From assembly GCF_000243135.2 (NCBI RefSeq), contig NC_019903.1:3386001-3450000 (forward strand): a DNA stretch of 64,000 nucleotides, read 5' to 3'. Shown here in pieces: positions 6,514-43,150 of this stretch. Origin of the DNA: Desulfitobacterium dichloroeliminans LMG P-21439. GTDB lineage: Bacteria > Bacillota > Desulfitobacteriia > Desulfitobacteriales > Desulfitobacteriaceae. The notes under the pieces were generated by a model that was not told the DNA's origin, did not search any database, and saw only the letters and a list, made by a program, of their open reading frames with translations. Each line of letters begins with the position of its first letter. Positions within the stretch are counted from its first letter, which is position 1. A program made the position numbers and the translations under genes.

Positions 6514-6553
6514 TTTTTACACCGCCTTTACAAACTCATTATTTCACAAACCC

Positions 6554-6716: not shown

Positions 6717-6727
6717 CACAATCGGTT

Positions 6728-10541: not shown

Positions 10542-10641
10542 CGTCTTATCCTCCTCCTTCCCGGTAATTTGGTCTATTGTCATATATTATACCTTTCTAT
10601 GGACAGGATTCAAAACATACACACCTTTAGTTCATCATGAA

Positions 10642-10689
10642 AAAAGGAGGGGTTACAACTACTCTATGAGCGGTTGCGCCTCTCCTTTT
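10642..10689 (-). terminator. Terminator of the serC-serA-DUF1015 operon
   Basis: AAAAGGAG and CTCCTTTT form the base, with further GG/CC and GCAAC/GTTG pairing inside. A T run follows on the minus strand. Confidence 0.75.
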
Positions 10690-10761
10690 AGGATACACCA
10701 CTTTGTATCTTTAATATGTGTTTTAAATCACTCACCCTAAGGGGACTTTTGTGGTTGTTCT

Positions 10762-12000: not shown

Positions 12001-12049
12001 ATTATTTCCCTCCTCTAGGGACAGGAGTTCACTCCTTGGCCCCTTGAAT

Positions 12050-12117
12050 ATTAACCTGTCATTCTGAGCGCTGGTGAAGAATCTTACTGCTACAGAAAGA
12101 TTCTTCACCTTGTTCAC
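12050..12117. repeat. REP-like palindromic element between DUF1015 and serA
   Basis: The element carries TGTCATTCTGAGCG and then GGTGAAGAATCTT (12073-12085), which pairs with AAGATTCTTCACC (12097-12109); it closes with GATGACA. The TCATTCTGAGCG...GAAGAATCTT pattern is a dispersed palindrome in many Clostridia. Here it could also form an mRNA hairpin between the two genes. Confidence 0.55.
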
Positions 12118-12149
12118 GATGACAATGAATAACTTGCTTAGTTGATGAC

Positions 12150-13313: not shown

Positions 13314-13399
13314 ATGAACACTCCTCTTCTTTCGGAACGACGGGGTCGTTCCCTACATAAATTATCACTTGTTTTTCAGAACGACACAGGGGACATTCT

Positions 13400-14482
13400 T
13401 TACTTGTTTTCTGCTTCGAATCTTTTCATAAAGTCGACCAGAGTTTGGACTCCTGCGATAGGCATGGCGTTATAGATACTGGCTCTCATTCCTCCGACTG
13501 TGCGGTAACCCTTAAGGTTTTCTAAGCCTGCGGCCTTCGCTTCCTTGATGAATTTAGCGTCCAATTCCTCAGAGCCGGTCACGAAAGGAACATTCATTAA
13601 GGAGCGGTCCTTCTTGACTACTGTGCCCTTAAACATAGTACTGGTATCCAGGTAGTCGTAAAGGATGGCTGCCTTTTCCTCGTTGATCTTTTTCATGGCT
13701 TCCAGTCCGCCGAGCTTTTTGAGCCACTTGAACACTTTGCCGCAAATATAGATACCATAAACCGGTGGAGTGTTGTAGGCCGAGTTATTGTCTACATGCA
13801 CTTTGTACTTCAGCATAGTGGGGGTTCCGGCTAAAACATCCTCGGTGATTAAATCCTCTCGGATAATTACAATCACGACCCCAGCTGGTCCTACGTTCTT
13901 TTGGGCCCCAGCAAAAATCAGGCCATATTTCGTAACATCGATGGGTTCGGATAGAAAATCCGAGGACATATCGGTTACTAAGGGTTTGCCTCCCACCTCG
14001 GGGAGCTCGTTGAACTTGGTGCCAAAGATGGTATTGTTGTGGCAGATATAGACATAATCGGCATCCTCAGAAAACTCTAGATTTTTAAGATCGGGGATAT
14101 AGCTATAGTTTTGATCTTCAGAAGAAGCGACAACCTTGATCTTGCCATAGAGCTTGCCTTCGCCGATGGCTTTCTTGGCCCATTGCCCGGTATTGAGATG
14201 ATCGGCAACTCGATTTTTCATAAGATTCATGGGGATCATAGCAAACTGCTGGGATGCTCCCCCTTGAAGAAAGAGGATCTTATAATTATTGGGAACCTGG
14301 AGTAGATCCCTCAAATCCTGTTCTGCTTCCTGCATCATTCCCTCGATGGTCTTAGAACGATGGCTCATTTCCATAACGGACATACCTGTTCCCTGGTAAT
14401 TTAACATTTCTGTGGCTGCTTCTTGAAGCACCTCTTGGGGCAGAACAGCAGGGCCTGCGGAAAAATTGTAAACTTTTTTCAT
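13400..14482 (-). CDS. serC: Phosphoserine aminotransferase
   Basis: 360 aa, the usual length. It converts 3-phosphohydroxypyruvate to phosphoserine using glutamate and PLP. The N-terminus MKKVYNFSAGPAVLPQEVLQ is diagnostic of SerC, and the PLP lysine lies in GLIFAGAQKNVGPAGV. The C-terminus has the substrate-binding GYRTVGGMRASIYNAM. Start ATG 14482 has AAGGGGG upstream. First gene of serC-serA-DUF1015, directly downstream of the tandem T-box region. Confidence 0.95.
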   Translation of the reverse strand: MKKVYNFSAGPAVLPQEVLQEAATEMLNYQGTGMSVMEMSHRSKTIEGMMQEAEQDLRDLLQVPNNYKILFLQGGASQQFAMIPMNLMKNRVADHLNTGQWAKKAIGEGKLYGKIKVVASSEDQNYSYIPDLKNLEFSEDADYVYICHNNTIFGTKFNELPEVGGKPLVTDMSSDFLSEPIDVTKYGLIFAGAQKNVGPAGVVIVIIREDLITEDVLAGTPTMLKYKVHVDNNSAYNTPPVYGIYICGKVFKWLKKLGGLEAMKKINEEKAAILYDYLDTSTMFKGTVVKKDRSLMNVPFVTGSEELDAKFIKEAKAAGLENLKGYRTVGGMRASIYNAMPIAGVQTLVDFMKRFEAENK

Positions 14483-14550
14483 TTTGAAATATCCCCCTTA
14501 AATATAAATAATTATAACAGTTAACATATATTGGGTAATCAGAAATAAAC

Positions 14551-14690
14551 AAAACCCACCCCAGCATTGGGGCGGGTTTTCCGCGGTGCCACCCAAGTTC
14601 TAGCCGATCACGATACATAGGAATTATCTCAACCACCTTCTTCTTCCAAAATAAGAAGAAGCTATGGTAGTGCATTGCGGAAAATAAATA
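14551..14690 (-). promoter_or_regulatory. Second T-box module of a tandem leader, without recognisable Stem I
   Basis: The T-box sequence GGGTGGCACCGCGG (revcomp of 14581-14594) stands just before a strong terminator hairpin (14551-14580: AAAACCCGCCCC...GGGGTGGGTTTT). Only about 90 nt separate it from the terminator of the first T-box. That stretch holds a CTTCTTC/GAAGAAG hairpin but no AGAGA or specifier-loop signature. It therefore looks like an antiterminator/terminator unit that has lost its codon-reading domain. Confidence 0.75.
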
Positions 14691-14691
14691 A

Positions 14692-14925
14692 AACCTCTCG
14701 TCCCTAATTAGGGACGAGAGGTTACTCCCGCGTTGCCACCCATGTTGCCGTATACGGCCAACTTATGTCCGCGATATCGGGCGGAACCCGTCACAATTCA
14801 TCATTGGCCACTCCGGGATGGAATCCACTGGCTTCATAGACTGACTTGCACCACCCGTCAGCTCTCTTCACCTAATCAGCGTAGGACGTCCGTTCATCGT
14901 GTTCAACTATAGATTAACGTTGTTA
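14692..14925 (-). promoter_or_regulatory. T-box riboswitch (serine type) upstream of serC
   Basis: A complete T-box leader. Stem I contains AGGTGAAGAGAGCTGACGG and the distal-loop sequence GGGTGGTGCAAG. The specifier region GGATTCCATCC gives UCC (Ser) at 14822-14820. The T-box GGGTGGCAACGCGGG is at 14741-14727, and the terminator hairpin is a 32-nt palindrome at 14692-14723 followed by a T-rich run. Uncharged tRNA-Ser should stabilise the antiterminator and turn on serC-serA. The specifier codon is my reading of the pattern; the T-box itself is clear. Confidence 0.9.
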
Positions 14926-14927
14926 TG

Positions 14928-14956
14928 ATTCTAATCTATTACACTTCGGCTGTCAA
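14928..14956 (-). promoter_or_regulatory. Sigma-A-type promoter of the ser operon
   Basis: TTGACA (14956-14951) and TAGAAT (14933-14928) on the minus strand are separated by exactly 17 bp, placing the transcript start just before T-box Stem I. Confidence 0.85.
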
Positions 14957-15029
14957 GACTTATTTCGCAAAGTTTTTGCAAAAAACTAGTCTGGGTGGAG
15001 TAGCTTACATACATCCGCGACCTTCGGGC

Positions 15030-15078
15030 GTGATCTCCTGAAACCATTCACCGGATGGTTTCTTTATCGGAGAATCAC
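15030..15078. repeat. Long imperfect hairpin downstream of the HD-domain gene
   Basis: GTGAT/ATCAC, CTCC/GGAG and GAAACCAT/ATGGTTTC pair in nested order. It may be a terminator or mRNA-end structure for the HD gene, although no clear T run follows. Confidence 0.45.
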
Positions 15079-15106
15079 GTGCTCAGGCGCTCCAGGGCCA
15101 GCGTAC

Positions 15107-15709
15107 TTATTTCCCAGCTTCTTGTGCTGCCTCTACATTGCCTTCTAAACCGATTGCCACCGCGATGTTGCGCATTCCTTTGATGGTCTCTTCGATAATC
15201 TCCTCGAGATCTTTACCGAGGCGATTGGCTCCCTCCTCGATGACTTCCCGATTGACATTCTCCGCAAAGCTCTTTTGCTTCCATTTCTTTTTTACGGATT
15301 TGGTGGTTAAATCATGGATACTTTTGCTGGGGCGAAGCAAGGCTGTTGCCGAGATCAGACCGGTCAGTTCGTCAATGGTGAAGAGAACCTTCTCAACATT
15401 TTCCCGGGGTTCCACATGATGGACTAGGCCATAGCCATGGCTTTCGATGGCTCGGATGAATTCATCGCTTAATTCTTTGGGGGTGAGTATTTCTCTCGTT
15501 TTGCGACAGTGTTGATCGGGGTACATCTCATAATCAATATCGTGGAGGAGGCCAATATTACCCCAAATATTCGGATCCTCTAGATAGAGGGTAGCAAAAT
15601 GACGCATCACTGCTTCTACCGTCAGTGAGTGACGCAATAGGGTTTCACTTTTCACATATTCATTAAGAAGCTGCCAAGCGGCCTCCCGGTCCTGCGCGTA
15701 GTTAGACAT
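15107..15709 (-). CDS. HD domain (HDIG-type) phosphohydrolase
   Basis: 200 aa. The N-terminal part reads LLRHSLTVEAVMRHFA followed by LLHDIDYEMYPDQH, giving the H...HD...D metal ligands of the HD superfamily. A conserved segment 'HGYGLVHHVEP' and a 'TGLISATALLRPSK' block place it in the group of short HD hydrolases that often accompany tRNA or nucleotide metabolism genes. Substrate unknown. Start ATG 15709, with AAGAAGGATGC just upstream. It appears to be a single-gene unit between the ser and met leaders, with no visible dedicated regulator. Confidence 0.8.
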   Translation of the reverse strand: MSNYAQDREAAWQLLNEYVKSETLLRHSLTVEAVMRHFATLYLEDPNIWGNIGLLHDIDYEMYPDQHCRKTREILTPKELSDEFIRAIESHGYGLVHHVEPRENVEKVLFTIDELTGLISATALLRPSKSIHDLTTKSVKKKWKQKSFAENVNREVIEEGANRLGKDLEEIIEETIKGMRNIAVAIGLEGNVEAAQEAGK

Positions 15710-15807
15710 TTTTGCATCCTTCTTTCTTGTTTAATTTACCTAGTAAATTTTTTTATTTAATAAGGGAATTTTTGACCCTTGCCCCGATTATACTATCTTT
15801 TTTTCCT

Positions 15808-16725
15808 TTACTTTATTTCGTCCAAGTTAAAGGGAGTTTCTTGGTAGACATAATAGTTCAGCCAATTGGCGAAGAGTAAATTGGAGTGGCCTCGCCACTT
15901 GACGGTGGGCTGCTTGGTTGGGTCATCTCCAGGATAATAATTAAAAGGGACATTGATGGTTAGTCCCTGGGCCACATCACGGTCATACTCAGATTTCAAG
16001 GTGTGGGGGTCATATTCAGAATGACCAGTTGCAAAAATCTGCCGTCCGCCCTTGGTCCCAACTAAATACACCCCTGATTCCTCAGACTCTGAAAGGATTT
16101 CCAGCTCGGGTATCTTTAAGATATCTTCTTTTCTGACTTCCGTATGCCGGGAATGGGGCACATAAAACAGATCGTCAAAGCCTCTGAGCAAACGGACATC
16201 CCGACGATTGAGGGTGTGAGGGAATACCCCGAACATTTTCCCCTGTAAAGGATATTTGGGCACCCCAAAAAAGTGGTAAAGCCCAGCCTGCGCTCCCCAG
16301 CATATAAATAGTGTCGAAAACACATTGTGTCTACTCCAATCCATTATCTTTTGGAGCTCCGGCCAGAAATCTACTTCTTCAAAAGACATTTGCTCGATGG
16401 GCGCCCCAGTAATAATCATCCCGTCAAATTTTTTGTCCTTAATCCCATCGAAGGTCTGATAATACTTAATCAAATATTCCTCTGGTGTATTCTTAGTTAG
16501 GTGGGTCTCCGGATAGAGTAGAGTAATATCCACTTGTAACGGAGAATTCCCCAGCAAGCGAAGAATCTGAGTTTCTGTGACAATCTTATTAGGCATGAGG
16601 TTAAGAATCACAATACTCAGAGGGCGAATATCTTGGTGTTCGGCGCGACCCTCTTCCATAATAAAAACATCTTCTTTGGTAAGTATTTCAGCAGCAGGTA
16701 GGCCATCGGGCACATTAATTGGCAT
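15808..16725 (-). CDS. metA: Homoserine O-acetyltransferase, MetA family
   Basis: 305 aa, full length for MetA (HTS family, glutamine amidotransferase-like fold). The catalytic Cys lies in [17 protein letters not shown], and His/Glu in [13 protein letters not shown]. In the acyl-CoA-discriminating stretch after ITGAP, the residue here is Glu ([14 protein letters not shown]), as in Bacillus enzymes that use acetyl-CoA. Succinyl-CoA-using E. coli MetA has Gly there. O-acetylhomoserine is therefore the expected product, for methionine synthesis by sulfhydrylation. It is preceded by a SAM-I riboswitch, so high SAM should terminate transcription. Confidence 0.93.
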
Positions 16726-16773
16726 GTCATTCTCTCCTTCAAGCGTTTCAACACATAAGTCCTATAACTAAAG

Positions 16774-16920
16774 ACCCTCTTTACAAGAAAGAGGGTGCGG
16801 GTTTCCAGTTCCTCTCTCATCTATCAATGGCTCCATCGCAGGAATTAGCACCGCTGTATTCTAGGGAATACCGGTTGCTGGGCTTCATTGGGCCAGTCCC
16901 TCCACCACTCTTGATAAGAT
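16774..16920 (-). promoter_or_regulatory. SAM-I (S-box) riboswitch with terminator, controlling metA
   Basis: On the minus strand the leader begins CTTATCAAGAGTGGTGGAGG, continues GGCCCAATGAAGCCCAGCAACC, and has GGTGCTAATTCC further on. These are the P1, P2 and P3/J3-4 hallmarks of the S-box. A terminator hairpin, ACCCTCTTT/AAAGAGGGT (16774-16796), follows. SAM binding is expected to favour the terminator. Confidence 0.95.
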
Positions 16921-16963
16921 CTTGGATTGTATTTAATTCGAGGCAGTCAACGCTATAGAAATT

Positions 16964-16992
16964 ATATTATTACATCTCATTGTTTATGTCAA
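16964..16992 (-). promoter_or_regulatory. Promoter upstream of the S-box leader
   Basis: TTGACA (16992-16987), 17 bp, then TAATAT (16969-16964) on the minus strand, about 45 bp before the riboswitch. The -35 is perfect and the -10 matches four of six positions. Confidence 0.6.
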
Positions 16993-17068
16993 CTGATATA
17001 TAACAATATCCTTAGTTTTCAGTAAACAGTACAAGGTGTCGACCCCATGGAGCATAACGGTATGGCTT

Positions 17069-17095
17069 AAAAAATGGGACCTGATCCCATTTTTT
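17069..17095. terminator. Hairpin terminator overlapping the exonuclease III stop codon
   Basis: AAAAAATGGGA and TCCCATTTTTT form an 11-bp stem with T runs on both strands. Its edge overlaps the TAA of the gene. Confidence 0.8.
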
Positions 17096-17846
17096 AGAAA
17101 ATCTCTAAACCCACGGGGCAATGATCGGAACCCAAGATTTCTGAGTAAATCACAGCATCCCTAAGTTGGTCCTTGAGACTTTCCGAAACGCAAAAATAGT
17201 CAATACGCCACCCTGCATTATTGGCCCGCGCATTAAACATGTAGGACCACCAGGTATACGCCTCAGTCTTATCTGGGTAGAAATAACGGAAAGTATCGAT
17301 AAAACCCTTCTTCAGAAGCTCGCCAAATTTGGCACGTTCTTCATCAGAGAAACCAGCGTTTTTGCGGTTGGTTTTGGGGTTCTTGAGATCGATCTCCGTA
17401 TGGGCCATATTAAGGTCTCCACAAAAGATGACAGGCTTCGCCTGCTCCAAATTCTTGAGGAAACTGAGGAATTCCTCCTCCCAGGTCATTCGGTACTCCA
17501 GACGAGCCAGCCCCCTTTGAGAGTTGGGCGTATACACCGTGACCAGATAGAAACCTTCGAATTCTAGGGTAATCACTCTGCCCTCTTGATCATGCTCTTC
17601 TTTGCCTATTCCATAAGTGACCTTCAAGGGCTCCTGTTTTGTAAACACGGCAGTACCTGAGTAGCCTTTCTTCTGAGCATAATTCCAGTACTGATGATAC
17701 CCCTCCAGCTGAAAAGGAATCTGGTCTGCTTGAATCTTTGTTTCTTGAAGGCAAAAAATATCCGCCTGTTCTTTTTCAAAGAAGTCCATGAAGCCCTTGT
17801 TCAGGCAAGCTCGGATGCCATTGACATTCCATGAAATTAGTTTCAT
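17094..17846 (-). CDS. xth: Exodeoxyribonuclease III (AP endonuclease)
   Basis: 250 aa from ATG 17846 behind GGAGAGAAGTGGG; an upstream extension would overlap the pepP-like gene. This is the EEP-fold DNA repair enzyme acting at abasic sites and 3' ends. [13 protein letters not shown] carries the metal-binding Asn, IFCLQETKI the catalytic Glu, [12 protein letters not shown] the Asp/Asn pair, and [12 protein letters not shown] the C-terminal Asp-His. Intact and of normal length. It is 19 bp downstream of the aminopeptidase gene and probably cotranscribed with it. Confidence 0.94.
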
Positions 17847-17865
17847 CCCACTTCTCTCCTCTATA

Positions 17866-19647
17866 TTAGTGCTGCTTAGTCCCAATCTCTTGAGCTAACC
17901 AAGCCTTTTCTTCATCATTTAAATACGGTTCCAGTTTGGCATAAACCATTTTATTATAGTCAGCGAGCCACATTTTTTCCTCAGCAGTAAGCAATTCTTG
18001 ATCCACACCCGCAATGTCAATAGGGCAATAGGTCAGGGCCTCGAACCGCATAAATTGACCAGATTCGGTCTCTTCATCCTTAACGACCACCATCATATTC
18101 TCGGTGCGAATGCCGAATTTTCCTTCCTTGTAAATACCGGGTTCATTGGTTAAAATCATGCCTTCTTCAAGCTTTACGGTGTTGGGCGTTTGGCTCAGTC
18201 TTTGAGGACCTTCATGGACATTTAAGAACATCCCCACTCCATGACCAGTACCGCATTTATAATCAAGACCATATTTCCAGATAGGTTGTCTGGCCAAAAC
18301 ATCGAGATTCGAGCCTGTGGCGCCATGGAGGAATTTCACAGCAGCTAAGGCAATATGCCCCTTTAACACCAGGGTATAATCCCTTTTCTCTTCCTCCGTC
18401 AGGGGTCCTAAAACAAGGGTACGGGTGATATCTGTGGTCCCGCCCAAGTATTGACCACCTGAATCCACGAGAAGAAATCCTTCTTGGTTCAAGGTATAGG
18501 CGCTATCAGGAGTGGCTTTATAATGCATCATAGCCCCGTGATCCTTGTGTCCGGCGATAGTATCGAAGCTGAGCCCGACACATTCTTTGTTCTCTCTTCG
18601 CAGATTATCTAGGTAATCTCCAGCTGTAAACTCGGTCATGTTTTCTTTACCCAAGTTGGTTTTGAGCCATTTGATGAATTTAACCATGGCAACTCCATCT
18701 TGGATAGAGCTCGTCCGTAGATTCTTCAGTTCAGTTTTATTTTTAATTGCTTTGAGTAGGGTGGTAGGATTTGTTCCTTCCACCTTTTTCGTTGCGGAAG
18801 GGATAGCATGATAAAGGACAGCGTTGAGCGACTCAGGATCAAAGAGGACGGAATCTTCAGCTTGCAACCCTTCCAGGAGCTCAACAATGGCTGTATACTT
18901 TGTAATCCGGATCCCTTCCCCCTCCAGCTCTGCTTTCATGGTGCTGGAAACTTTGGTTTCATCAATACATAAATAACAAGCATCTTGAGTGACTAAGACA
19001 TGAGCGATTGTCACTGGGTTATTCGGCACATCATCACCCCGGATATTTAGAAGCCAGGCGATGTCATCTAAAGCGGTGAGCACATGAACATTGGCGCCCT
19101 TATCCTTCATCTGTTCACGAAGGTTATCTAGCTTTTCCCCACGGGAACGACCTGCATATTTTAGGTCATAGATAAATGCATCTGTGGTAGGTAATGTCGG
19201 GCGATCCTGCCATAATTCCCCGATTAAATCGCGATTGAACTTTAAGGAAATTTGTCCTTGGTATTCCTTTTCCAGATCTTGAACCTGTTTAGCGGAAAAG
19301 ACATGTCCATCAAAGCCCACGGAGGCTCCCGCCGGCAAAAGATCCTTTAACCATTCTGAATAACTAGGGACCCGAGGATCTGCCCCACGGAACAAACGGA
19401 TTCCGGAATTTTGGAGTTGTTTTTCGGCTTGAATGTAATAACGGCCATCTGTCCAAAGACCTGCATCCTTTAAGGTAACCACTACTGTGCCTGCGGAACC
19501 GGTAAAGCCCGAGATCCACTGGCGGCATTTGAAATGCTCCGCTACATATTCACTGAGATGAGAGTCGGCGCTCGGCACAATATAGGCGTCCATCTGATTA
19601 TCTTGCATAAGTTTTCTTAGTTTTGCGATACGTTCTTGCACTATCAT
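17866..19647 (-). CDS. Xaa-Pro aminopeptidase (M24B)
   Basis: 593 aa, the long three-domain form: two creatinase-N-like domains (starting [20 protein letters not shown]), then the M24 pita-bread catalytic domain from about residue 310. Metal ligands are seen in [18 protein letters not shown] (two Asp), [14 protein letters not shown] (His), [19 protein letters not shown] (two Glu). A C-terminal extension of about 60 residues, typical of the eukaryotic-like APP1 group, follows. It should release N-terminal residues before proline in the cytoplasm. There is no signal peptide. Confidence 0.9.
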
Positions 19648-30467: not shown

Positions 30468-30671
30468 TTGAAGGTACATATTGTGAAGTATAAAGAAGCT
30501 TTCATCGTTCTCGTACCCGATTCTGATCCTACCCATAATAAAAGCACGATTGGCACTGAATCCTATACCGCTCATACAGTTCTTGTCCAGAATATTGATC
30601 AGGCTCTCGCTGAATGTAAGAGTCTAGTAGAGCAAGAAGGCATCAATGCCTTTGTCCTCTGTCCGGGCTGA
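30468..30671 (+). pseudogene. Truncated DUF6506 protein gene, cut by an IS21 remnant
   Basis: 67 aa survive, starting at TTG 30468 (AAGGTACATATTGTG gives GTG 30483 as an alternative). The reading 'FIVLVPDSDPTHNKSTI...GINAFVLCPG' matches the first two thirds of DUF6506 proteins, which continue with CPGFxH and about 35 more residues. The frame instead hits TGA exactly where the istB-like sequence begins, so the tail was lost to the insertion. Confidence 0.7.
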
Positions 30672-31413
30672 CGCAAAGGAAGCCGTAGTCGATATCTACT
30701 GTAAGCAGCTTAAACTTCCTGGCCTTAAGGCCCATTTTAGGGATTTAGCCCGGGATGCCATGGCTCAAAACCAAACACCTACTTCCTTTTTAGCCGCAGC
30801 CTTAGCTAAAGAAGTTGAGGTTCGTGCACAGAAACGATTATCCACACGTTTAAAGCAATCTCGAATTCAAGAGGTAAAGACCATTGAAGGGTTTGACTTT
30901 ACTAGTATTCCTAAAGTCCCCAAACATAAGATTGTTTCCCTGTCCGAATGCAAATTCATCCAAGAGCGAGAAAACGTCATATGTGTAGGACAATCGGGCA
31001 CAGGAAAATCCCATATTGCCACTGCCATTGGTATTTCTGCAATTCAGCAGGGCTACAGGGTGCGATTTGTTAAAGTGAGCGATCTCCTTCAGGAACTATT
31101 GAAAGCTGAGAGTGAGTATAGATTACCTCGTTATCTCAAGACCTGGAACAAATTTGACCTTGTTATCCTCGATGAACTAGGCTACATAAACCTTGGCGCG
31201 GACAGTCCTTTGCTCTTCCAATTCTGCTCTGAACGCTATGAGAGTGGTAGCCTGATCATAACCACAAACCTAGAATTTGGCCGTTGGGGGGAGGTATTTG
31301 GTGACAATGCCCTAACCATAGCTTTACTTGACCGGATAACTCACCATGCCCATGTTATCCCTTTCATTGGTGAGTCCTATAGGTTCAAGCAGAGCAAGAA
31401 AAAAGGGAACTAA
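30669..31413 (+). pseudogene. istB: IS21-family helper ATPase IstB, start codon lost
   Basis: About 247 codons of IstB remain (DAKEAVVDIYCKQLKLPGLK onward). Walker A is CVGQSGTGKSHIATAIG, Walker B VILDELGYI, and the sensor region SLIITTNLEFGRWGEVFGD is intact. The frame is open from 30646, but the first eight residues are read from DUF6506 DNA in another frame, so the native start is gone. Without IstA it cannot act as a transposition helper. Confidence 0.8.
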
Positions 31414-31947: not shown

Positions 31948-32418
31948 TTATTTTTTCTTTATTAAATAATCCTCATAACCCGAATCAAGTCTGTATTTAG
32001 TTACCTCTATAATCTCTTCAACTTTTTTATGATCCCTTCTCTTTCCTATGAGCTTAAGTAGTAATTCCTCCATTTTCTTCAAAGCGTAAATATCAGCTTC
32101 CTTTTCCCTGTTAATGATTTCATCTTGTTGGATTGTAATTCGAGTAAAAGGATCACTGAAATGCTTATTTATAACGTGACCTGACTCATGGAAAAATAAA
32201 TATAGATCCTCGAATTTAATTATTTCTCGTATATCAACACAAGCCAAGCACTTTGAAGTTCTTTCGTCTATCCATACTTCTGCATGTCCATCCTGTCCGG
32301 GTCTAGCCTTTACAAACATCACTCCATCTACCACATTATTTAGCTCATTAAGAACCTCTTCAATTGCTTCTTTAAACTTTACCTTTGCTTTAACATGGTT
32401 TAATTCAAAGTAATCCAT
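31948..32418 (-). CDS. ImmA/IrrE-like zinc metallopeptidase
   Basis: 156 aa. LYLFFHESGHVINKHF holds the HExxH zinc motif (His-Glu-Ser-Gly-His), and EKEADIYALKKM about 25 residues later supplies the third ligand, as in ImmA/IrrE proteins. Members cleave or sense repressors of mobile elements, or act as toxin-like partners. No adjacent repressor gene is seen; it may instead belong with the nuclease-methylase pair upstream (289-bp gap). ATG 32418 has AAAGGGGAT upstream. The C-terminus is lysine-rich and there is no signal peptide. Confidence 0.75.
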   Translation of the reverse strand: MDYFELNHVKAKVKFKEAIEEVLNELNNVVDGVMFVKARPGQDGHAEVWIDERTSKCLACVDIREIIKFEDLYLFFHESGHVINKHFSDPFTRITIQQDEIINREKEADIYALKKMEELLLKLIGKRRDHKKVEEIIEVTKYRLDSGYEDYLIKKK

Positions 32419-32707: not shown

Positions 32708-35014
32708 TTAGGTATCCCCTTGACTATTAGTTAAGAGCCATTTGTAGATACCGTTAATAAAATCATACTCATCTTTTGTTACACTATAATTTGCTTTTAT
32801 AAGCTTATTACTAATAGTAAATAGGCGATTAATCCATTCGGTTTTGGCTTCTTTACCGCCATGAACTTTAACTTCTTCTGGTCGAGTGATGATATTGTCG
32901 AAAATCTCAGACCAGTTTCTCCCGTTTATTACTATCTCCCGACAATCATTTAGATTTACGCAATCCCAAATGCTTATTGCTTCAGAACTTAGACCAGAAG
33001 CAATATTCTCATATGTTTGTTCATCAGCTTCTTTCTTAGCTTTAAGATAAACCAATTTAGGCAGACCAACTATAAGCCATTTCTCACCTCGGGCCTTTTC
33101 GAGGTGATGAGCAACTATGTCTTTTACTATCTTTTCTATTTCTATTAAATACTTTCGAGAAGATTCATTATATGTTTTAGCCTCATCCTCCCAGTATCTT
33201 TTAAGTCCCTCTGGGTTAAAGTCTGCTCGCTGATCAGATATTGCTTTTTGAAATGTACGCCAAAACTTTGTATCTGCACCTCCACCAAATACGCTCTTAA
33301 GTTCCTTCCTCTGTTCTATGCTGAGGTTTATGAAAAAGTCAACTAGTGGGTCTAGGTAATATCTTACCTCATCAACAAGCTTAGAGGTTTTGTCTATTTT
33401 AGGAAACATTTGATGTGCTTCAACCAAATGATTTACAATATCATTAATTACTCTTATAACACCTTGGATACCTCTATTGATTGTAAGAATACCACTGTTG
33501 CTTTCTCCTTTTTCCCACTCATTTTCAAGGAGAGATTTTACGTACTTCAAACACTCTTCAAGAAAAGGATAAAAGATATCTAGAGTGTCCTGATTTGTAC
33601 CAACATCGAATGTGCCATCCTTTATAATAATATTCTTTTTACCAAAGGTTGAAAAAAACTGGCACTTTTTCAGTGCTGCTTGAATAGCTTGCACAGTTAT
33701 ACATTTTATAGATGCTTTTTCATCTTCACCTATTGCAACTCGCCCAAGGAGAGGAGAGGTTTCTTCCTCTCCAAGCATCTGTGCGATTTTTGATCTTAAA
33801 GCTTGCCTCTGCTCATTATAATCAGTAGAATCCCAAAACATATCACTATTTAATGTAACTCTTAGTGATTTAGATACCGCTTTCTGATTCTCGTTAATAT
33901 CCATGAAGAGCTTTATCTGTTCTTTGCGGTCAAGGTCAACAAATGCTACCACCGGAATTGAATTTGTGGATGCGTATCGAGAATCTGAATACCCATATAG
34001 ACGATGCTGACCGTCAATAATATAGGCAGAACGATACTTTTTGGGCAAATGTAATATTCCCAACTTAGATAATGATCCCTCAACTCTTGTTGGTGAGATA
34101 TCAAATTGCACATCTTTTCCACCAGTATCGATACTAATAATTAACGAATTGGGGAAATACCCTTCACTATCCACGAAGTTTTTTATATCTTTTAGCCTTT
34201 TTTTCTTTATTAAACGCTGATATGTAGGCATCATATTCTTGTTTGCTTCATTCCTATGTAGCACATAACTAATCTTCAGAAGTTTTTCTGGTTCAATAGA
34301 GAATGAATAATATGTATAACCACCCATTTTTCCCTGAATGGCTGGAATCTTGTTCTCCATATTCTTAATCTCTTGATTTGCAAACAAGTTCCCAAGCAAT
34401 TGATATCTTGCACTAGTGCCAATATGTTTAACAAGTTCGATATAATAATCCACAACAGCGTTGCTGAAATAAGCAATATTCCACTCATTAAGCTTGTTCA
34501 AATCCGCTCTACTCATTATATAATTGTGCGTAGCCCAAATGAATTTAACTTTTCTGCCCGGAAATTCCTTTAGAACCTCCTTACGCAAGCCATCCATTTG
34601 ACCATAAAAAGCCTCTATAGGCTTTTTAAACGCTCCATCTTTTACTGTTTCGGACGCTTTGCATTCTATAATAATTACCGTTTCTTCATCAGCTGCAAAA
34701 ATATCAATTTGCTGAGTGATATCTGGATTTTGAAAGTCATATTGCATTTTAAATGAACGGTCTCTGTTCATATCTGTGAATCCTAGATTCGCAAAAAGCA
34801 TCCATACCCTATCTTCAAATACCTCGTCAAAGCGTTTATCCTTCTTAACACCTACGTATTTTGGATCTTTATAGGACTTAAATTCAGTCCATCCTTCTTC
34901 TATGAGTTCTGGGAGCGCAATTTGACGTTCTTTTCTTGTTATATAAGTCTTACACCTTTCCTGTTTCGCAGTCAAAAGCTCTTTTCCACTGACAATTTTC
35001 CCCCAGTCTGTCAT
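32708..35014 (-). CDS. PD-(D/E)xK nuclease-like + DGQHR (ParB/DndB-like) domain protein
   Basis: 768 aa. Residues about 60-190 look like a PD-(D/E)xK restriction fold: E64 or E67, D104 in QQIDIFAA, then E117-C-K119 in VIIIECKA. Residues 240-450 carry the DGQHR family hallmarks: IIDGQHRLYGYS (D334-R338) and LFMDINENQKAVSKSL about 40 residues on. DndB of the phosphorothioation systems and other modification-linked proteins share this module. The C-terminal 300 residues are helical with no recognised domain. It starts one base after the methylase stop, so both are made together. A restriction or modification-sensing role is inferred; the catalytic residues look intact. Confidence 0.7.
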   Translation of the reverse strand: MTDWGKIVSGKELLTAKQERCKTYITRKERQIALPELIEEGWTEFKSYKDPKYVGVKKDKRFDEVFEDRVWMLFANLGFTDMNRDRSFKMQYDFQNPDITQQIDIFAADEETVIIIECKASETVKDGAFKKPIEAFYGQMDGLRKEVLKEFPGRKVKFIWATHNYIMSRADLNKLNEWNIAYFSNAVVDYYIELVKHIGTSARYQLLGNLFANQEIKNMENKIPAIQGKMGGYTYYSFSIEPEKLLKISYVLHRNEANKNMMPTYQRLIKKKRLKDIKNFVDSEGYFPNSLIISIDTGGKDVQFDISPTRVEGSLSKLGILHLPKKYRSAYIIDGQHRLYGYSDSRYASTNSIPVVAFVDLDRKEQIKLFMDINENQKAVSKSLRVTLNSDMFWDSTDYNEQRQALRSKIAQMLGEEETSPLLGRVAIGEDEKASIKCITVQAIQAALKKCQFFSTFGKKNIIIKDGTFDVGTNQDTLDIFYPFLEECLKYVKSLLENEWEKGESNSGILTINRGIQGVIRVINDIVNHLVEAHQMFPKIDKTSKLVDEVRYYLDPLVDFFINLSIEQRKELKSVFGGGADTKFWRTFQKAISDQRADFNPEGLKRYWEDEAKTYNESSRKYLIEIEKIVKDIVAHHLEKARGEKWLIVGLPKLVYLKAKKEADEQTYENIASGLSSEAISIWDCVNLNDCREIVINGRNWSEIFDNIITRPEEVKVHGGKEAKTEWINRLFTISNKLIKANYSVTKDEYDFINGIYKWLLTNSQGDT

Positions 35015-35015
35015 A

Positions 35016-35849
35016 TTATCGCACCCCTTCTGTTATATTAGTAAATATATACTCTGTGACCAAACCACGTTTAGAATTGATACCTCCAATTAGGCTGTTC
35101 CGTTCAAGCTTAAAAAGCTGATCGCCTTTATTAAAGATTTCAAATACTGTTTTATGGGCTGCATTTGTTAGTATATAAAATGCGTTTTTATCTTTTATAA
35201 CATCAATAAAGTCGCTCAATCGCTTTTGGTCATCTATTGAGAAGAGCGTTTTGTTATACTCAATAAATCCATTATTATTATGCGATACTGTATAGGGGGG
35301 GTCTAGAAAAACCAGATCTCCGCTTTTTATCATATCTACATAGTGAGTAAAATCTCCAGCGGCTATATTAGCATTTTGTAATGCATAACTAGCTGTAATT
35401 AGTTTGTCTGTATTGATTTTAAGTTTTTCCCTAAATCCATATGGAACGTTATATTTACCTTTTTTATTTACCCTGTATAATCCGTTATAAGATGTCTGAT
35501 TAAGAAATATAAATCTTGCAGCCTTCTCAAAAGCATTCTCTGGCTCGCTAGCACGCAATTGATAATAAAACTGCTCTGTGTTCTGGTATTTTAACAACAA
35601 ATCAATAACAGAATAAGGATCTTCTTTTACCGCTAAATATGTTTCAATTAGCTCATTATTGATATCGCATAGAAAGGACTTATTCTTAGGTTGGTATGAA
35701 AAAAACAATGCCCCACCACCAAGAAATGGCTCATGATAATTATTAAAGACACTATTGCTTAATATTTGTCTTAAATACTCCAGCAACCACTTCTTACCAC
35801 CAGCCCACCTTAAAAAAGGGCCTGACTGGATTTTTTTAGAATCAGCCAT
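35016..35849 (-). CDS. Dam-type adenine-N6 DNA methyltransferase (D12 class)
   Basis: 277 aa, full length. FLRWAGGKKWLL near residue 13 is the class alpha start motif, FLGGGALFF is the SAM-binding motif, and VFLDPPYTVSH is the DPPY catalytic motif. The order motif X-I-IV is that of Dam/DpnM enzymes. The target may be GATC but is not shown by sequence. First gene of a two-gene unit with the nuclease-like protein; AT-rich sequence (about 35% GC) contrasts with the flanking chromosome and suggests transfer. It protects host DNA if its partner cuts unmodified DNA, which is inference. Confidence 0.88.
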   Translation of the reverse strand: MADSKKIQSGPFLRWAGGKKWLLEYLRQILSNSVFNNYHEPFLGGGALFFSYQPKNKSFLCDINNELIETYLAVKEDPYSVIDLLLKYQNTEQFYYQLRASEPENAFEKAARFIFLNQTSYNGLYRVNKKGKYNVPYGFREKLKINTDKLITASYALQNANIAAGDFTHYVDMIKSGDLVFLDPPYTVSHNNNGFIEYNKTLFSIDDQKRLSDFIDVIKDKNAFYILTNAAHKTVFEIFNKGDQLFKLERNSLIGGINSKRGLVTEYIFTNITEGVR

Positions 35850-36717: not shown

Positions 36718-39700
36718 TTATACAGGCTGATTCTTCCCATACTCAAGCAACTTGCGTTTCCAAGCGGGCATATTTTCAACATTTTCTTGCTCATCTGCTA
36801 CCAAGGATAAACGCCGAAACTTCTGTTGCCTGGAACCAGTTTCTCTTTGCTCCTTCACTGTTGCAAACAAAATTGCACCTTCAACAGGCCGATTCTCCGC
36901 TGAATAATCATCTCCCAATTCATTAACATGAATGCTACCATCTTGATTATGATAATCCACAAGCTTAACTTGGGTATAGAAATCAACATTACGAATAACC
37001 CGGCATTTTACGCGCATCCCAACTTGAAGTTCTACAGGACTATTCGTTGTTTCAGATTCAACATTATAACCACTTTCAACAACACTTTGATCATAAGCAC
37101 GTAATCCATCATAGCTAAAGCCCACTCCAAAAGAAACTAATTTGCCGATGTCCTCAGAATCAAAGCGTTGTTTTGCTCTAGAAGGATTGAAAAACACCTC
37201 CATGTTGTGAGAACTCAATGTTGCATTCCCGGGATTCTTGTAGTTTATAATCCTCCCAGTTAGTCTTTCAAGGTTAACTGCATTGTCCTCACGAATCTGC
37301 TTAGCTGAATACTTCCGCAAACGTCCCAACCCTTTTCCCTCTCCTAGCCATTCGAATACTTGTCTGTTATTGTAGCGGTGTTCAGCCTTTTGTTTTAATT
37401 CGGTTTGCAGAAAGGGAATGTCTGCCTCAGCACGAGATGCCCCCTCAATTGCTTTAATACAGATTAAAATAAAATAATAATAGTAGGCTTCAACACTACC
37501 CGTCGTCGCTTTCCACACAGAAAGATTGCTAATAGCTTCATCTAACAGTAATTCTGGATCCTTTGACGAGCAATACCTTACAGTATCAAACCAAATACGT
37601 ATATTGGCGGCATTATTTGGATCTTCTCTGATGTTTTCTACCATCAGTGCCATAATATCATCAATATCCTTTGATGATGCCACATCGTAACCTCTTTTTC
37701 GCAATTGAGATTGTTTAGCACGTGCTAAAAAACGCCTTACTTGGGTAATTTCCGAAGTTTTTGCTTGTTGTAAAAATTTCTCCCACATTAATACGGTTTT
37801 ATCCAGTTCTCCTACTAGGTTATCTAATTTCGCCTGTAGTGTGCTACGAGAAAAATCGCTATCATCCTCGACAGATCTCAATGCATCCATAAGAGATAAC
37901 GCTTCATCAAGGTACCACATATACCATTCGCCCTGATTGTTCCGAATGAATTCGACAGAATCATCATCTTTAGAGATTGACTTCCCAATATCAACAATGT
38001 CAATGCATAGGTCAATAGCTGAAACGTATCCTGGGACCTGATTATTTAATAAGCGCGTCGTTTTGAACATATCGAGCGCTTCATTTGCCGCATTTTTAAT
38101 TCGCTCTACCCATATTTGTGCATTCTTAGTTTCGTCATATTCGTGGCACTCAAATATTTTTCGTTTATACTCGTCCTTGATTTGTCTGCTTATATTCACG
38201 CCGCAAATATGATATAGCAAAGGATCTGTACAATTAAGGCTTTCTGAAAGACTAATGGCATCTTTAGCAAGACGAATTCCCTCTAGATAATTTTTCTCGA
38301 CCAGTGTATAAAAACGAGCAAGGTGAGCAACAAAATGGGGTTCATCAGGATATGTGTCAACAAGAGTTTTAAATATTATCCCTACCCCATTCTCTCCATC
38401 TTGAGTGCTCGGCATCATACTTTTAACAATAGAAATTAACGGGGAAAACTTATCTTGAATAATCTCTGTTTTATCCTTTAAAATAAAAAGATTTTTCATT
38501 ACATCAAGCGTTGTGTCATAATCCACTACTGAATTAGTCTTCGAAATTTGAATAAACTCGATAAGATAGCGTATTAAATTATTCGCCTTAGCTGCTTGAT
38601 GCAAAACACTGCCGTCGGGTCCCTCATAAACAGTTTGTTCAATGATTTCGTCCGCAAATAATGGATGTCTAAGGCAATAACTTCTGCTACTGTCGGTTGA
38701 CTTGAGTATCAATAAGTCGTTGAATGGGCTGTCTTTTTTAAAGAAAGTATCCTTATCTTCCTCTTCATCAAAAGTTATCAGATGTCTCGGAAAAAAGGAT
38801 TCGTTTATAGGGCGATTAGCATATTTGTCTGCTATCGATAGATAAATTAGTATCTTTTTCTGTTCATTATTCATACTTTTCAAGAACGTGCGAATATAAG
38901 GTTTAATACCTACAAAATTTTCTTCGAAGGTATAAAGTGCCATAAAAAACGGAGATCTTTCTGATATTCTCGAGGGCGAATGGCATATATCGTCGATTAT
39001 GGCTAACGTTTCCTGCGAGGCAAAAGGTTCTAATCGTTTTTTCATTTCCAAGCACTCATAATCGTTGAGGCTACTTAAAAAAACGCTTTGATAGGCATTT
39101 CTATCATTGGATCTTCTTCTACGTATATAAACTATTACAAAAGGAAAGGCCAGTGGTTTTAATTCATTAGCAAATGCGTTAACTTGATCCTGCGTAAGCA
39201 TACTAGAATCAATAACTACAATAATTGTCGTTCTTAGCAAATTATATAAGTTATTCACCTGTTTAGCCGTAGTTTCTTTTGTATATTGCTTCAGCATGCA
39301 GATGGGATAGTCAAGACGCATACTATATGCCATAGTCCTCGCAAAAGTGCTTCCACCAATTCCTGGTTCATGTATGACATGGAAAATACCGTACGAGTCA
39401 TCTAATCCATATATAAGCTTCTTCAATTTTGTGGCGGTTTCATTTCGGGAAATTGCAAAACCAAATTTTGCGCCGTACCAACTTAGGGGGACCCTACCTT
39501 GATAGAATAGCTCGGAATATTCATCGCCTTCAAAATCCCCATTGTTTTCAGCCACGTCGTTATGTACAAGGTCAAAATGGTTGAACAGACCAGGGACAAC
39601 CGATACCAGCGTGCCGTTTTTAGCAGGCATCATGCACGAATAAGTCGAGTTTAGAATTTTAAAAATACTTGAATTTGCTAAAATGCTGTTGGCAAGTTCG

Positions 39701-40800
39701 GCTGCAGAAAGCTGAAGTGGCTTAATGACATATGGCTCCCCAAACTCAGAATAGCTGGCTGGTGAAGAAAGTATTAAAAATTGAACGTTTTCTTCATACA
39801 CTTGATCTAACGCCTCTATGACCTTCTTTACTTTTCTAATCGAAGAACTAAGAATAACCACCTTGATTGGCTTCTCAAAAACCGCATGATATCTTTGAAA
39901 GGCTAGATACAACTTAGAGCCATACCTTTGCCCCCATTTCCGAAAATCCTCTTCACCAACCACTGTCGCGGGCAAATCCACCAAACCATTAAGATAAAAC
40001 CAATATGGGGTAGGGCTAAAACAATTGAATTCCGTCCGTTCAGGATTATGTGGATCAAACTTTAATGCTTGAAGCTTATGTTCGTGATGATAAGCCGCCG
40101 CCAGCCCATTTTGTTCAGAGGCTCTATCAAAGTCCAAAACTTGGGCCCACTTAATATGTGTAATTGCCCTTTTTTGCGAATCTGTCAAATCTGATAACGC
40201 ATCAGTAACAAGCACATAATTCCAACGCCCATTTCCCTGAAAAAAATCCGTTTCCTCAAATAGATTATTGACTTCCATAGAAAAAGCAGACCCTTCTGAA
40301 GAATCCAATTCAAGTTGTGCGTCAGGATCGACATACGCAAGAATAAACCTTTTCACTTCTGGAAGTACCAAGCGAAATGAGTTTTCTTGAGTGTTACTAA
40401 GTTCGTGTTTATGTCTATTAGTTATGCTAAAAGCGTTTCTATTTATAATCTCATAATCAATAGAAATATTATGTAAATGGGGATCTTGTTTACCTAGCAT
40501 CTCAATTAGATCAGGTCTTTGCATGTTTTCGATGCTCTTCTTATTGTTTTGAAACTCTGACCAATTTATCTGCCCGTTATTATAAGCTTCCTTATTAATT
40601 AACACAAGGTAGCGTTTCAATGCAGCTTCGAAAACTTGATACAATGAGGTACCTGCTTGGTTGAGAAGAGATAATGTCTTGTAGGAAGCATCTTCTGAAT
40701 CTCTTCTGCTGTAAGCATTAAATAATTCTACACTTTGGTTATAATAGAATACGATTTTATTTTTATCCATGTAGTTGCTGTTCAAAGTCGATCTCCCCAT
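36718..40800 (-). CDS. SAMD9-like STAND NTPase, giant predicted defence protein
   Basis: 1360 aa from ATG 40800 (AAAAGGGG upstream). Residues 1-160 are helical (possible HEPN-like effector around RHKHE). Residues 190-370 are Rossmann/SIR2-like, with IKWAQVLDFDRASEQNGL. The P-loop lies at about 475-487 as HEPGIGGSTFART, where the usual Lys is replaced (GxGGST); IIVVIDSS near 530 fits Walker B. A winged-helix-like and a TPR-rich region follow (about 640-1150). Two OB/cold-shock-like domains come last (from LTGRIINYKNPG about 1190, then GMRVKCRVIRNVDFYTQVKL). This order and the atypical GG[ST]T P-loop match published descriptions of animal SAMD9/SAMD9L and their bacterial relatives. It stands alone in an island. 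Defence by abortive infection is inferred. Confidence 0.6.
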   Translation of the reverse strand: MGRSTLNSNYMDKNKIVFYYNQSVELFNAYSRRDSEDASYKTLSLLNQAGTSLYQVFEAALKRYLVLINKEAYNNGQINWSEFQNNKKSIENMQRPDLIEMLGKQDPHLHNISIDYEIINRNAFSITNRHKHELSNTQENSFRLVLPEVKRFILAYVDPDAQLELDSSEGSAFSMEVNNLFEETDFFQGNGRWNYVLVTDALSDLTDSQKRAITHIKWAQVLDFDRASEQNGLAAAYHHEHKLQALKFDPHNPERTEFNCFSPTPYWFYLNGLVDLPATVVGEEDFRKWGQRYGSKLYLAFQRYHAVFEKPIKVVILSSSIRKVKKVIEALDQVYEENVQFLILSSPASYSEFGEPYVIKPLQLSAAELANSILANSSIFKILNSTYSCMMPAKNGTLVSVVPGLFNHFDLVHNDVAENNGDFEGDEYSELFYQGRVPLSWYGAKFGFAISRNETATKLKKLIYGLDDSYGIFHVIHEPGIGGSTFARTMAYSMRLDYPICMLKQYTKETTAKQVNNLYNLLRTTIIVVIDSSMLTQDQVNAFANELKPLAFPFVIVYIRRRRSNDRNAYQSVFLSSLNDYECLEMKKRLEPFASQETLAIIDDICHSPSRISERSPFFMALYTFEENFVGIKPYIRTFLKSMNNEQKKILIYLSIADKYANRPINESFFPRHLITFDEEEDKDTFFKKDSPFNDLLILKSTDSSRSYCLRHPLFADEIIEQTVYEGPDGSVLHQAAKANNLIRYLIEFIQISKTNSVVDYDTTLDVMKNLFILKDKTEIIQDKFSPLISIVKSMMPSTQDGENGVGIIFKTLVDTYPDEPHFVAHLARFYTLVEKNYLEGIRLAKDAISLSESLNCTDPLLYHICGVNISRQIKDEYKRKIFECHEYDETKNAQIWVERIKNAANEALDMFKTTRLLNNQVPGYVSAIDLCIDIVDIGKSISKDDDSVEFIRNNQGEWYMWYLDEALSLMDALRSVEDDSDFSRSTLQAKLDNLVGELDKTVLMWEKFLQQAKTSEITQVRRFLARAKQSQLRKRGYDVASSKDIDDIMALMVENIREDPNNAANIRIWFDTVRYCSSKDPELLLDEAISNLSVWKATTGSVEAYYYYFILICIKAIEGASRAEADIPFLQTELKQKAEHRYNNRQVFEWLGEGKGLGRLRKYSAKQIREDNAVNLERLTGRIINYKNPGNATLSSHNMEVFFNPSRAKQRFDSEDIGKLVSFGVGFSYDGLRAYDQSVVESGYNVESETTNSPVELQVGMRVKCRVIRNVDFYTQVKLVDYHNQDGSIHVNELGDDYSAENRPVEGAILFATVKEQRETGSRQQKFRRLSLVADEQENVENMPAWKRKLLEYGKNQPV

Positions 40801-41364: not shown

Positions 41365-42576
41365 TTATGCTGTTATCACTGTCCCATCCCGGAAGGTATA
41401 CTTAATACCTCCAGAAGCATCTACTGTTACTTTCTCAATCACCGCATACCAAAGTCCTTCATCAAATTCTGTCAAAATAGAATCCTGCCGTAGCACCATA
41501 TCAAGAAAGGCATCCAACTGCTCCCTTTTTACCTTACGGGCACAGCTCAATTCTTCGTTCTTCTCAAGCCTACCTCTGACTTTCTCATAGCGTGCCACCA
41601 GCTCCTTATACCTTTGCAGGTATTCGACTTGGTCTTGACCTCTCTGAGCGTTTTCCTCCACACACTGCCGAATTAACCCGGTAACCACTTCAATCTCCCG
41701 TTGCAGTTCCACGGCTTCAGCTTCTAAAGCAGCAGTATCGGTCAGTACCTTCTTCAGCATTTTACAATTTTCCCCAATCTCCTCTTTGTTTGTTATCAGT
41801 TGGTTAAAGGCACTCAGGAATAATTGCTTTAAATTAGCTTCATCAATATGCGGTGTTTTACATTTATCAGAGCCTTTAAATTTGTGGTTGCATCGCCAGA
41901 TGGTGCGACGGTATTTGCTCGTGGAATGCCACACCTTGGAGCCATAAAAATTGCCGCAATCACCGCAGATGATTTTGCTTGAGAAGCAGTTAGCTCCGCT
42001 GTGGCACTTACCACCTTCTTTTCGGCGTTTCATCTCAAACTGAACCATATCAAATGCATCTGGCTGGATAATTGCCGGGTGACTATTTTCCACATAATAC
42101 TGAGGAATCTCCCCTTCATTAACCTTCTTCTTCTTGGTAAGGAAGTCAACAGTGAAAGTTTTTTGAAGCACCGCGTCGCCCTTATACTTTTCGTTGGTGA
42201 GGATACTTTCTACCGTACTAACCGGCCATTTTGCTCTCCCTGATGGCGTGGGAATATCACTTTCCGTGAGGTGTTTAGCAATTCCTGATGGGGTTTTCCC
42301 TTCAAGAAATAGCTTATAAATCAATCGGACCGTCACAGCCTCCGACTCCACAATTCTGGGTAGCCCATCCTCCCCCTTTTCATAACCTAGGAATTGTCGG
42401 TAGGGCAAGCTGACCTTACCATCAGAAAATCGTTTCCTTTGTCCCCAAGTAATATTTTCAGAAATACTGCGACTCTCTTCCTGGGCTAAGCTCGACATAA
42501 TGGTGATCAGCAGTTCACCCTTACTGTCTAAGGTATAAATGTTTTCCTTTTCAAAATATACCCTAACACCTTTTTT
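41365..42576 (-). pseudogene. Large serine recombinase lacking its catalytic domain
   Basis: An uninterrupted frame of 377 aa runs from ATG 42498 and extends upstream without an ATG to an in-frame TAG at 42577-42579. The extension reads GVRVYFEKENIYTLDSKGEL and then LLITIMSSLAQEESRSIS, which is the end of the resolvase domain. The ~110 residues carrying the catalytic Ser are missing. What remains is the recombinase domain (PSGIAKHLTESDIPTPSGRA), a zinc beta-ribbon (CGDCGNFYGSK...WRCNHKFKGSDKC) and a coiled coil. It cannot catalyse integration. It is the probable former integrase of module 2, cut by the repeat-bearing DNA at 42600. Confidence 0.8.
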
Positions 42577-42794: not shown

Positions 42795-42812
42795 TTTATT
42801 TGGTGGAGGCGA
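42795..42812 (+). repeat. ssrA 3'-end attachment sequence (intact, att C)
   Basis: TTTATTTGGTGGAGGCGA covers the CCA end and acceptor stem of tmRNA plus six bases outside. It is the parent of the degenerate copies at 31748 and 36054. Confidence 0.6.
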
Positions 42813-43150
42813 GGGGAATTGCACCCCTGTATCGAAGAGCTGCCACAAAAGCGTCTACGCGTGTATCCTTCTCTTTAAACTTCGCCTCTTGGTCTCCAGA
42901 AGGCAGGATCCTTCCAAGGCTATCTCGATAATCTTAGCTAATGACTCCGAGAATTGTCATTAGAGCAGTCCTACTAATTTGACACCCTGACCCTTCATCG
43001 TAGGCCTTGAAGGCAGGATGCTAGAGCACTTAGGCTGCTAGAGCGTAATTATTGTTGTTAACTATTAAGGTCCACCGTTTAACGAGACCAGGTGGAATCT
43101 CGACGCGCAACTCTTGCCACCGCTTCCCCGAGCGAGTCTAAAACGCCCCC
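42801..43150 (-). ncRNA. ssrA: tmRNA
   Basis: 350 nt. The 5' end GGGGGCG pairs with CGCCTCC before the 3' ACCA (42804-42801), and the T-arm loop sequence GGGGTGCAATTCCCC is present. The tag frame reads AAC AAC AAT AAT TAC GCT CTA GCA GCC TAA (43059-43030), i.e. NNNNYALAA-stop, probably preceded by a GTT resume codon. It rescues stalled ribosomes with SmpB. The gene is intact despite insertions beside its 3' end. A TATACT -10-like box lies upstream. Confidence 0.95.

Follow-up and report, generated by a model that had tools for sequence, protein, structure and literature searches.

What does a DNA adenine methylase do beside a large protein in which a DGQHR domain, of the kind known from DndB, is joined to a putative nuclease? 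The question is raised by two genes of Desulfitobacterium dichloroeliminans LMG P-21439 (NC_019903.1), located within a 64-kb stretch that is called the window and in whose numbering all its positions are given. The first gene encodes a Dam/DpnM-type methylase and the second a three-domain protein, termed here the fusion. DGQHR/DndB-type proteins neighbour many DNA-modification systems and their role (repressor, NTPase or nuclease) is disputed. In this locus a single polypeptide unites the domain with two effector domains, and the neighbouring methylase leaves a mark that is open to mapping, so that what DGQHR reads becomes directly addressable. Very probably the two genes form a defence system, so far without a name, that tells self from foreign DNA; if this is true, it is a compact two-gene defence cassette that phages themselves carry.

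The argument begins with the constancy of the pairing. A single scan, covering 84,980 species genomes, gave 321 relatives of the fusion, the best 80 of which were kept and analysed; they are 37–70% identical to it, nearly all full length, and their hosts are Bacillota, Bacteroidota, Actinomycetota, Spirochaetota and others. Three of these loci are at the end of a contig and offer no usable upstream sequence, which leaves 77 assessable loci, some of them near-duplicates, so that the independent cases are somewhat fewer. A D12-class methylase is located within about 4 kb of the fusion in 77/77, and in 71 it is directly adjacent on the same strand (70 within 300 bp, and L043 when a frameshift is allowed for). 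Three further loci have the order methylase, DpnII endonuclease, fusion; PtuA/PtuB-like genes stand between methylase and fusion in L082, a DpnII-type set occupies the strand opposite to the fusion in L083, and the Dam-like methylase about 4 kb from the fusion in L077 may be a coincidence. The linkage of cognate methylase and nuclease genes that characterizes type II restriction-modification systems is found at all 77 loci, which removes the concern, raised in a preliminary description of this DNA made from the sequence alone, that homologues might mostly occur without a methylase. None of 23 control loci with short DGQHR proteins has such a methylase, most of them having only about 1.5 kb of flank. 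A chance reading frame or artefact is ruled out by the same gene order in homologues from several phyla.

Exceptions were met on alphaproteobacterial plasmids (Novosphingobium pNL1, Agrobacterium/Rhizobium), where homologues have no methylase nearby. At L006 (pNL1, 7983–18055) and L007 (an Agrobacterium plasmid, 4185–14573) the methylase-less homologue sits in a conserved neighbourhood, present in two orders, with a second short DGQHR gene, a radical S-adenosylmethionine (SAM) gene, two GHKL-type ATPases and a PIN-like gene. The alphaproteobacterial plasmid homologues read DER and DET at the nuclease triad and keep the R-x4-H motif of the HEPN domain described below, and their loci may use another, possibly different DNA-modification system.

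The pair is also carried by viruses. In IMG/VR two contigs only have this methylase type at >50% identity, and the fusion adjoins the methylase in both; they were obtained by an alignment-based scan, a single-protein scan of the viral contigs having given no match. The pair lies near portal, terminase or major-head genes, on the first contig between terminase and replication genes and on the second, where the methylase is frameshifted, next to terminase and major-head genes. Because both contigs carry the pair beside phage structural or packaging genes, they indicate that methylase and fusion can travel as a two-gene cassette or cargo.

The methylase itself was assigned to the Dam type already in the preliminary description, and the assignment holds: the protein scores 198.6 bits against NCBIfam dam TIGR00571 (cut-off 114.85) and 146.7 bits against Pfam MethyltransfD12 PF02086 (cut-off 22), its nearest solved structure is DpnM (2dpm, E 1.6e-49), and it carries D183PPY, the glycine-rich SAM motif FLGGG and the Dam/DpnM signature NGLYRVN...YNVP (N122, R126, P136). 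The 55 typical partner methylases, that of the window included, form one clade (Shimodaira-Hasegawa-like approximate likelihood ratio test, SH-aLRT, 99) that leaves out 29 Dam methylases taken from related genomes as controls. The window methylase thus belongs to a clade exclusive to fusion-linked methylases, which together with the constant pairing rules out an orphan Dam methylase beside an unrelated neighbour. Apart from this main clade (T1), the partner methylases comprise a divergent type in closely related clostridial loci (T2), DpnM-like enzymes, a type whose gene lies downstream together with DUF7226, and a further D12 family (F8). In every Dam-family type that was inspected the DpnM/Dam recognition signature, NG[LI]YR.N...[FY]N[VT]P, is retained, so that the mark is probably N6-methyladenine (m6A) at GATC or at some other GAT-core site.

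DGQHR genes were encountered in other company as well. Plasmid pZZM405 of Zymomonas mobilis ZM4 (L184, 1130–4792) encodes in a row a short DGQHR protein, a 440-residue protein that matches nothing in Pfam, and a Dam-family methylase sharing 40.5% identity with that of the window, which makes a parallel DGQHR and Dam pairing. On the Acinetobacter plasmid pTR3_4 (L009, 427–4303) the row consists of an N6_N4 methylase, a NotI-like endonuclease, a short DGQHR protein and an uncharacterised protein, and in the filamentous Pf-type Pseudomonas phage PfAC19 (L010, 5974–7953) a DGQHR gene is followed by an uncharacterised gene, apparently as cargo.

Which effectors does the DGQHR domain have at its disposal? 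In an AlphaFold2 model of the fusion, built from 68 homologues (mean predicted local distance difference test, pLDDT, 87.9), the N-terminal domain matches best the fold of AF1548 (Z 12.2, root-mean-square deviation 2.3 over 118 residues), followed by Can2/Card1 (Z 9–10), Nt.BspD6I (8.4), EndoMS (8.2) and FokI (7.1). Of the predicted catalytic residues, D104 is kept in 62 of 70 homologues and E117 in 55, and position 119 is K in 51 and R in 9. A nuclease fold had been suspected here earlier, and its absence was named as a ground for refutation; the match to AF1548 with a mostly kept D-ExK shows that the N-terminus does have a PD-(D/E)xK fold. When the sequence of the fusion was compared with solved structures no convincing match appeared, and a Pfam scan gave no match to the DpnII family. 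The central domain scores 179.2 bits against NCBIfam DGQHR TIGR03187 (cut-off 58.85; model positions 1–276 of 276) and 72.4 bits against Pfam DndB (cut-off 29.1), and residues 227–378 of the model match the ParB fold bound to cytidine diphosphate (6sdk, Z 8.1). The DGQHR module had also been recognized from the letters; its DGQHR, QR and FxxxN motifs are present, and are invariant in 70/70 aligned homologues. In the translated sequence D104, E117, K119, D334–R338 and DINENQK (372–378) all stand where they had been placed.

The earlier view of a two-part protein was correct for the nuclease and DGQHR parts but overlooked a third, C-terminal HEPN domain. Pfam HEPN_Swt1 PF18731 matches 31 of 61 homologous C-termini (best E 1.1e-6), and the C-terminus of the window fusion itself has no Pfam match. 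Modelled alone (pLDDT 92.3), it resembles most the HEPN proteins Csm6 (Z 8.0) and a HEPN toxin (Z 5.8), a Z of 8 for a helical bundle being weak if taken alone; R-x4-H is found at exactly this C-terminal site in half of the 70 homologues. The clade of the window reads SNKLIK there, and the window protein has no catalytic R-x4-6-H. Judged by these residues, the HEPN domain of the window copy is predicted to be non-catalytic, and the DNase alone catalytic.

The effector sites were scored in the 70 aligned homologues as D/E, D/E/Q and K/R for the nuclease triad and R-x4-H for HEPN. Only the nuclease site is intact in 27 (including the window), both sites in 26, only HEPN in 9 and neither in 8; at least one site is therefore intact in 62/70, the triad being kept in 53 (including the window) and lost in 17. 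A tree built solely from the DGQHR core requires 9 changes of the nuclease label and 2 of the HEPN label. The eight homologues without either site are one clade (SH-aLRT 96), from the clostridial loci L023–L031 and L061, where the pair stands directly behind drmA/drmB of DISARM (defence island system associated with restriction-modification; drmA, drmB, methylase) and a NERD-helicase gene. Identity between this clade and typical homologues is 0.26–0.47 at residues 97–144 and about 0.8 over the DGQHR core, and all triad losses outside the clade retain the HEPN motif. The link to DISARM is a single evolutionary event, suggestive and not a statistical proof. Since the effector sites have been lost piecemeal, and completely only beside DISARM genes, the pattern suggests that the conserved function of the fusion is sensing; in our reading the DGQHR switch would be the conserved function and the effectors would be exchangeable.

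Four loci carry DpnM-like, DpnII and DpnA-like genes together with the fusion; the DpnII copy of L057 matches PF04556 (E 1.7e-94), and the copies of the remaining loci cluster with it. Such variants within DpnII and DISARM-like loci had escaped the preliminary description. At L082 and L084 the fusion is linked to the different D12 methylase (F8) and to PtuA/PtuB-like (Septu) genes. The window genome gave no match to DpnII or DrmA, which leaves it outside DISARM and makes the fusion the sole visible effector beside the window methylase.

How might such a pair distinguish self from foreign DNA? We consider it probable, with some reserve, that it is a compact restriction-modification-like unit, in which the DGQHR switch reads the adenine-methyl mark and releases the nuclease on unmarked DNA. 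The methylase would mark host sites, probably GATC or another GAT-core site. The DGQHR domain would bind DNA and a nucleotide and read the methylation state, nucleotide binding or hydrolysis acting as the switch, as it does in its relatives, the DGQQR domains found in SspE, GmrSD and BrxU. Unmarked incoming DNA would make the switch free the N-terminal nuclease, and in homologues with an intact R-x4-H an RNase may also be released, as a second-line or abortive action. That DGQHR may read methylation and gate the nuclease, an idea of the preliminary description, is now better supported than before, because DGQHR alone is invariant while the effector sites go piecemeal. A polarity toward unmethylated DNA is the preferred reading, since a full-length fusion lacking the methylase does not occur among the 77 loci and since unmethylated DNA is what both partner systems found, DpnII and DISARM, attack. 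A precedent for such gating is SspE, whose DGQQR GTPase senses a DNA mark and then licenses the fused nuclease (PMC13251355).

Several observations weigh against a unit of this kind. The HEPN step is absent from the window's own copy, and at the four loci with DpnII a fusion that acted simply as a restriction enzyme would duplicate what is there already. The window genome has additional D12 methylases, and the shortage of GATC in the window is only mild (observed/expected 0.83). The fusion shows no evident separate target-recognition domain; localising such a region by comparing homologues that accompany T1 and T2 methylases failed, the identity dropping evenly along the protein without a localised dip and both types sharing the recognition signature. 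Finally, sensing need not imply nuclease gating, given that the regulator DndB is a DGQHR relative.

The missing target-recognition domain would be less of a difficulty if the host's own m6A mark switched the fusion on, as in SspE, so that nucleotide hydrolysis would follow and the nuclease would attack unmarked DNA, the methylase being needed for activity as well. SspE is the nearest worked-out mechanism for a DGQxR NTPase-nuclease fusion (PMC13251355), and GmrSD and BrxU, which share this fold, require modified DNA (PMC10952713). We nevertheless regard this alternative as rather unlikely, for if the fusion were harmless alone, some orphans would be expected, and the 77 loci include none; moreover, SspE has HNH and DUF262 in place of PD-(D/E)xK and DGQHR, and the partner systems found act on unmarked DNA. 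Less probable still is a guard in the manner of PrrC, in which the fusion would monitor the methylase or a partner restriction system and, on failed methylation, cut host DNA or RNA and cause death or arrest. The intact HEPN R-x4-H in half of the homologues would suit it, as would the embedding of the fusion beside DpnII systems (four loci) or with a D12 methylase and PtuA/PtuB-like genes (two), and restriction-linked HEPN domains have been proposed as a second line (PMC3710099). The window copy, however, has lost the HEPN motif and yet keeps the DNase, no other restriction enzyme to be guarded was seen in the window or in the two-gene loci inspected, and the two-gene cassette is present in prophages. 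That the DGQHR protein merely regulates an orphan Dam methylase in the manner of DndB, with a structural nuclease part, is very improbable: DndB is described as repressing its own operon in a nucleotide-dependent way (PMC4507180; PMC12704722) and 17/70 homologues have lost the triad, but the remainder, the window among them, keep it, and outside the DISARM-linked clade every triad loss leaves the HEPN site in place, so that one effector is retained.

A sensing unit that releases its nuclease on unmarked DNA may be one form of something broader. Tentatively, and with more doubt than confidence, a widespread unnamed defence class can be envisaged, in which an invariant DGQHR sensor of adenine methylation is combined with two exchangeable, separately losable effectors (DNase and HEPN RNase), so that one sensor could serve in restriction, in abortive RNA cleavage or, once both effectors have been inactivated, in telling self from non-self for a machine of the DISARM kind.

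One may ask which known system comes nearest. SspE, GmrSD and BrxU resemble the fusion in that a ParB/Srx-type nucleotide switch (DGQxR) is fused to a nuclease and tied to DNA modification state, a logic known for this DUF262 branch (PMC4619093, PMC10952713). The fusion differs from them in belonging to the DndB/DGQHR branch, in its N-terminal PD-(D/E)xK in place of a C-terminal DUF1524 HNH, in the added HEPN domain and in the predicted m6A mark made by a dedicated methylase; membership in GmrSD was rejected (Pfam GmrSD_N 15.4 bits, cut-off 33.2; no HNH match). DndB of Dnd phosphorothioation and DpdB of the 7-deazaguanine system Dpd have the TIGR03187 domain in common with the fusion, and DpdB is its best PADLOC match (E 2.1e-25). 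It is nevertheless no ordinary DndB or DpdB, missing both equivalog cut-offs (44.6 of 328 and 82.3 of 300 bits, respectively) and having, unlike either, two extra effector domains; no dnd or dpd genes were found among the surrounding reading frames or in Pfam and PADLOC scans of the neighbours. The DpnII/MboI systems (DpnM, DpnA, DpnII) possess a methylase of the same Dam/DpnM family with an identical recognition signature. Protein P0003 of pNL1 is a full-length homologue of the fusion, 33% identical, and probably the same as the Saro_3948 entry in a 2013 listing. That entry, a ParB-HEPN fusion of Novosphingobium with a Swt1-like HEPN domain (Anantharaman et al., 2013, PMC3710099), is a partial precedent overlooked when the preliminary description stated that no named system with exactly this pair was known; a named system or paper with the pair was indeed not found in the databases and open-access literature searched. 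The passages of PMC3710099 on ParB-HEPN contain no dedicated methylase partner, PD-(D/E)xK part or effector-loss pattern, and the Novosphingobium locus has a radical-SAM cluster and no methylase. Within the databases and open literature searched, and as far as those passages go, no description was found of the pairing with a dedicated methylase of the Dam type, of the arrangement in three domains or of the pattern of effector loss, all of which are apparently new.

Both reading frames lie on the minus strand with the coordinates and one-base spacing first reported (Table 1). The methylase stop codon TAA occupies 35018–35016 and the ATG of the fusion 35014–35012, the spacer being the single base 35015. 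By direct reading of the sequence, a Shine-Dalgarno-like AAGGAG precedes the methylase start. Because the corresponding stretch of the fusion sits inside the end of the methylase gene, translational coupling of the two is likely.

Table 1. Features of the methylase-fusion pair in window numbering
Feature	Position	Strand	Remarks
Dam/DpnM-type adenine-N6 DNA methyltransferase	35016..35849	-	277 aa; modification gene; NCBIfam, DpnM 2dpm, tree clade
Three-domain effector (fusion), PD-(D/E)xK - DGQHR - HEPN-like	32708..35014	-	768 aa
Shine-Dalgarno-like GAAGGGG	35019..35030	-	within methylase 3' end, ~9 nt before fusion ATG; direct sequence reading
PD-(D/E)xK nuclease domain, residues 62-195	34430..34831	-	AlphaFold2 model, fold matches
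Predicted catalytic triad D104 / E117 / K119	34658..34705	-	conservation in 70 homologues
DGQHR (ParB/Srx-type NTPase) domain, residues 225-527	33434..34342	-	TIGR03187
QR motif Q266 R267	34214..34219	-	70/70 conserved
DGQHR motif D334-R338	34001..34015	-	70/70 conserved; FxxxN partner motif = F370-N374
Swt1-like HEPN domain, residues 613-768	32711..33178	-	homologue Pfam matches and fold; R-x4-H degraded in window copy
Degraded HEPN motif S735-N-K-L-I-K740	32795..32812	-	RN-xxx-H in half of homologues

The surroundings are consistent with an acquired defence island at 32–41 kb. Its G+C content is 32–40%, against mostly 41–46% to either side, and it is bounded by an IS21-type istB gene and by a serine-recombinase fragment adjoining a transfer-messenger RNA (tmRNA) gene; tmRNA genes are common insertion sites of islands. 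Direct repeats as island ends around the tmRNA gene were not found within the window, and an Rfam search around the pair gave the tmRNA only. The region also contains a large STAND-like NTPase gene (36718–40800, minus strand; 1360 residues; Pfam nSTAND_NTPase7 E 3.4e-4, under the cut-off), probably a second defence gene beside the pair. Its C-terminus is S1-like by eye, and the protein resembles the HEPN-STAND-TPR-S1 architecture given in PMC3710099.

The tmRNA gene (42801–43150, minus strand) was detected by Rfam and missed by ARAGORN, and the serine recombinase frame beside it (41365–42498, minus strand) has no match to an N-terminal catalytic domain. On the other side, the istB ATPase gene (30646–31413, plus strand) has no full istA next to it in the list of reading frames. 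Between istB and the fusion, a 156-residue protein (31948–32418, minus strand) carries a zincin-like HESGH motif, is ImmA/IrrE-like by eye and shows a weak NCBIfam match to the phage exclusion protein Lit.

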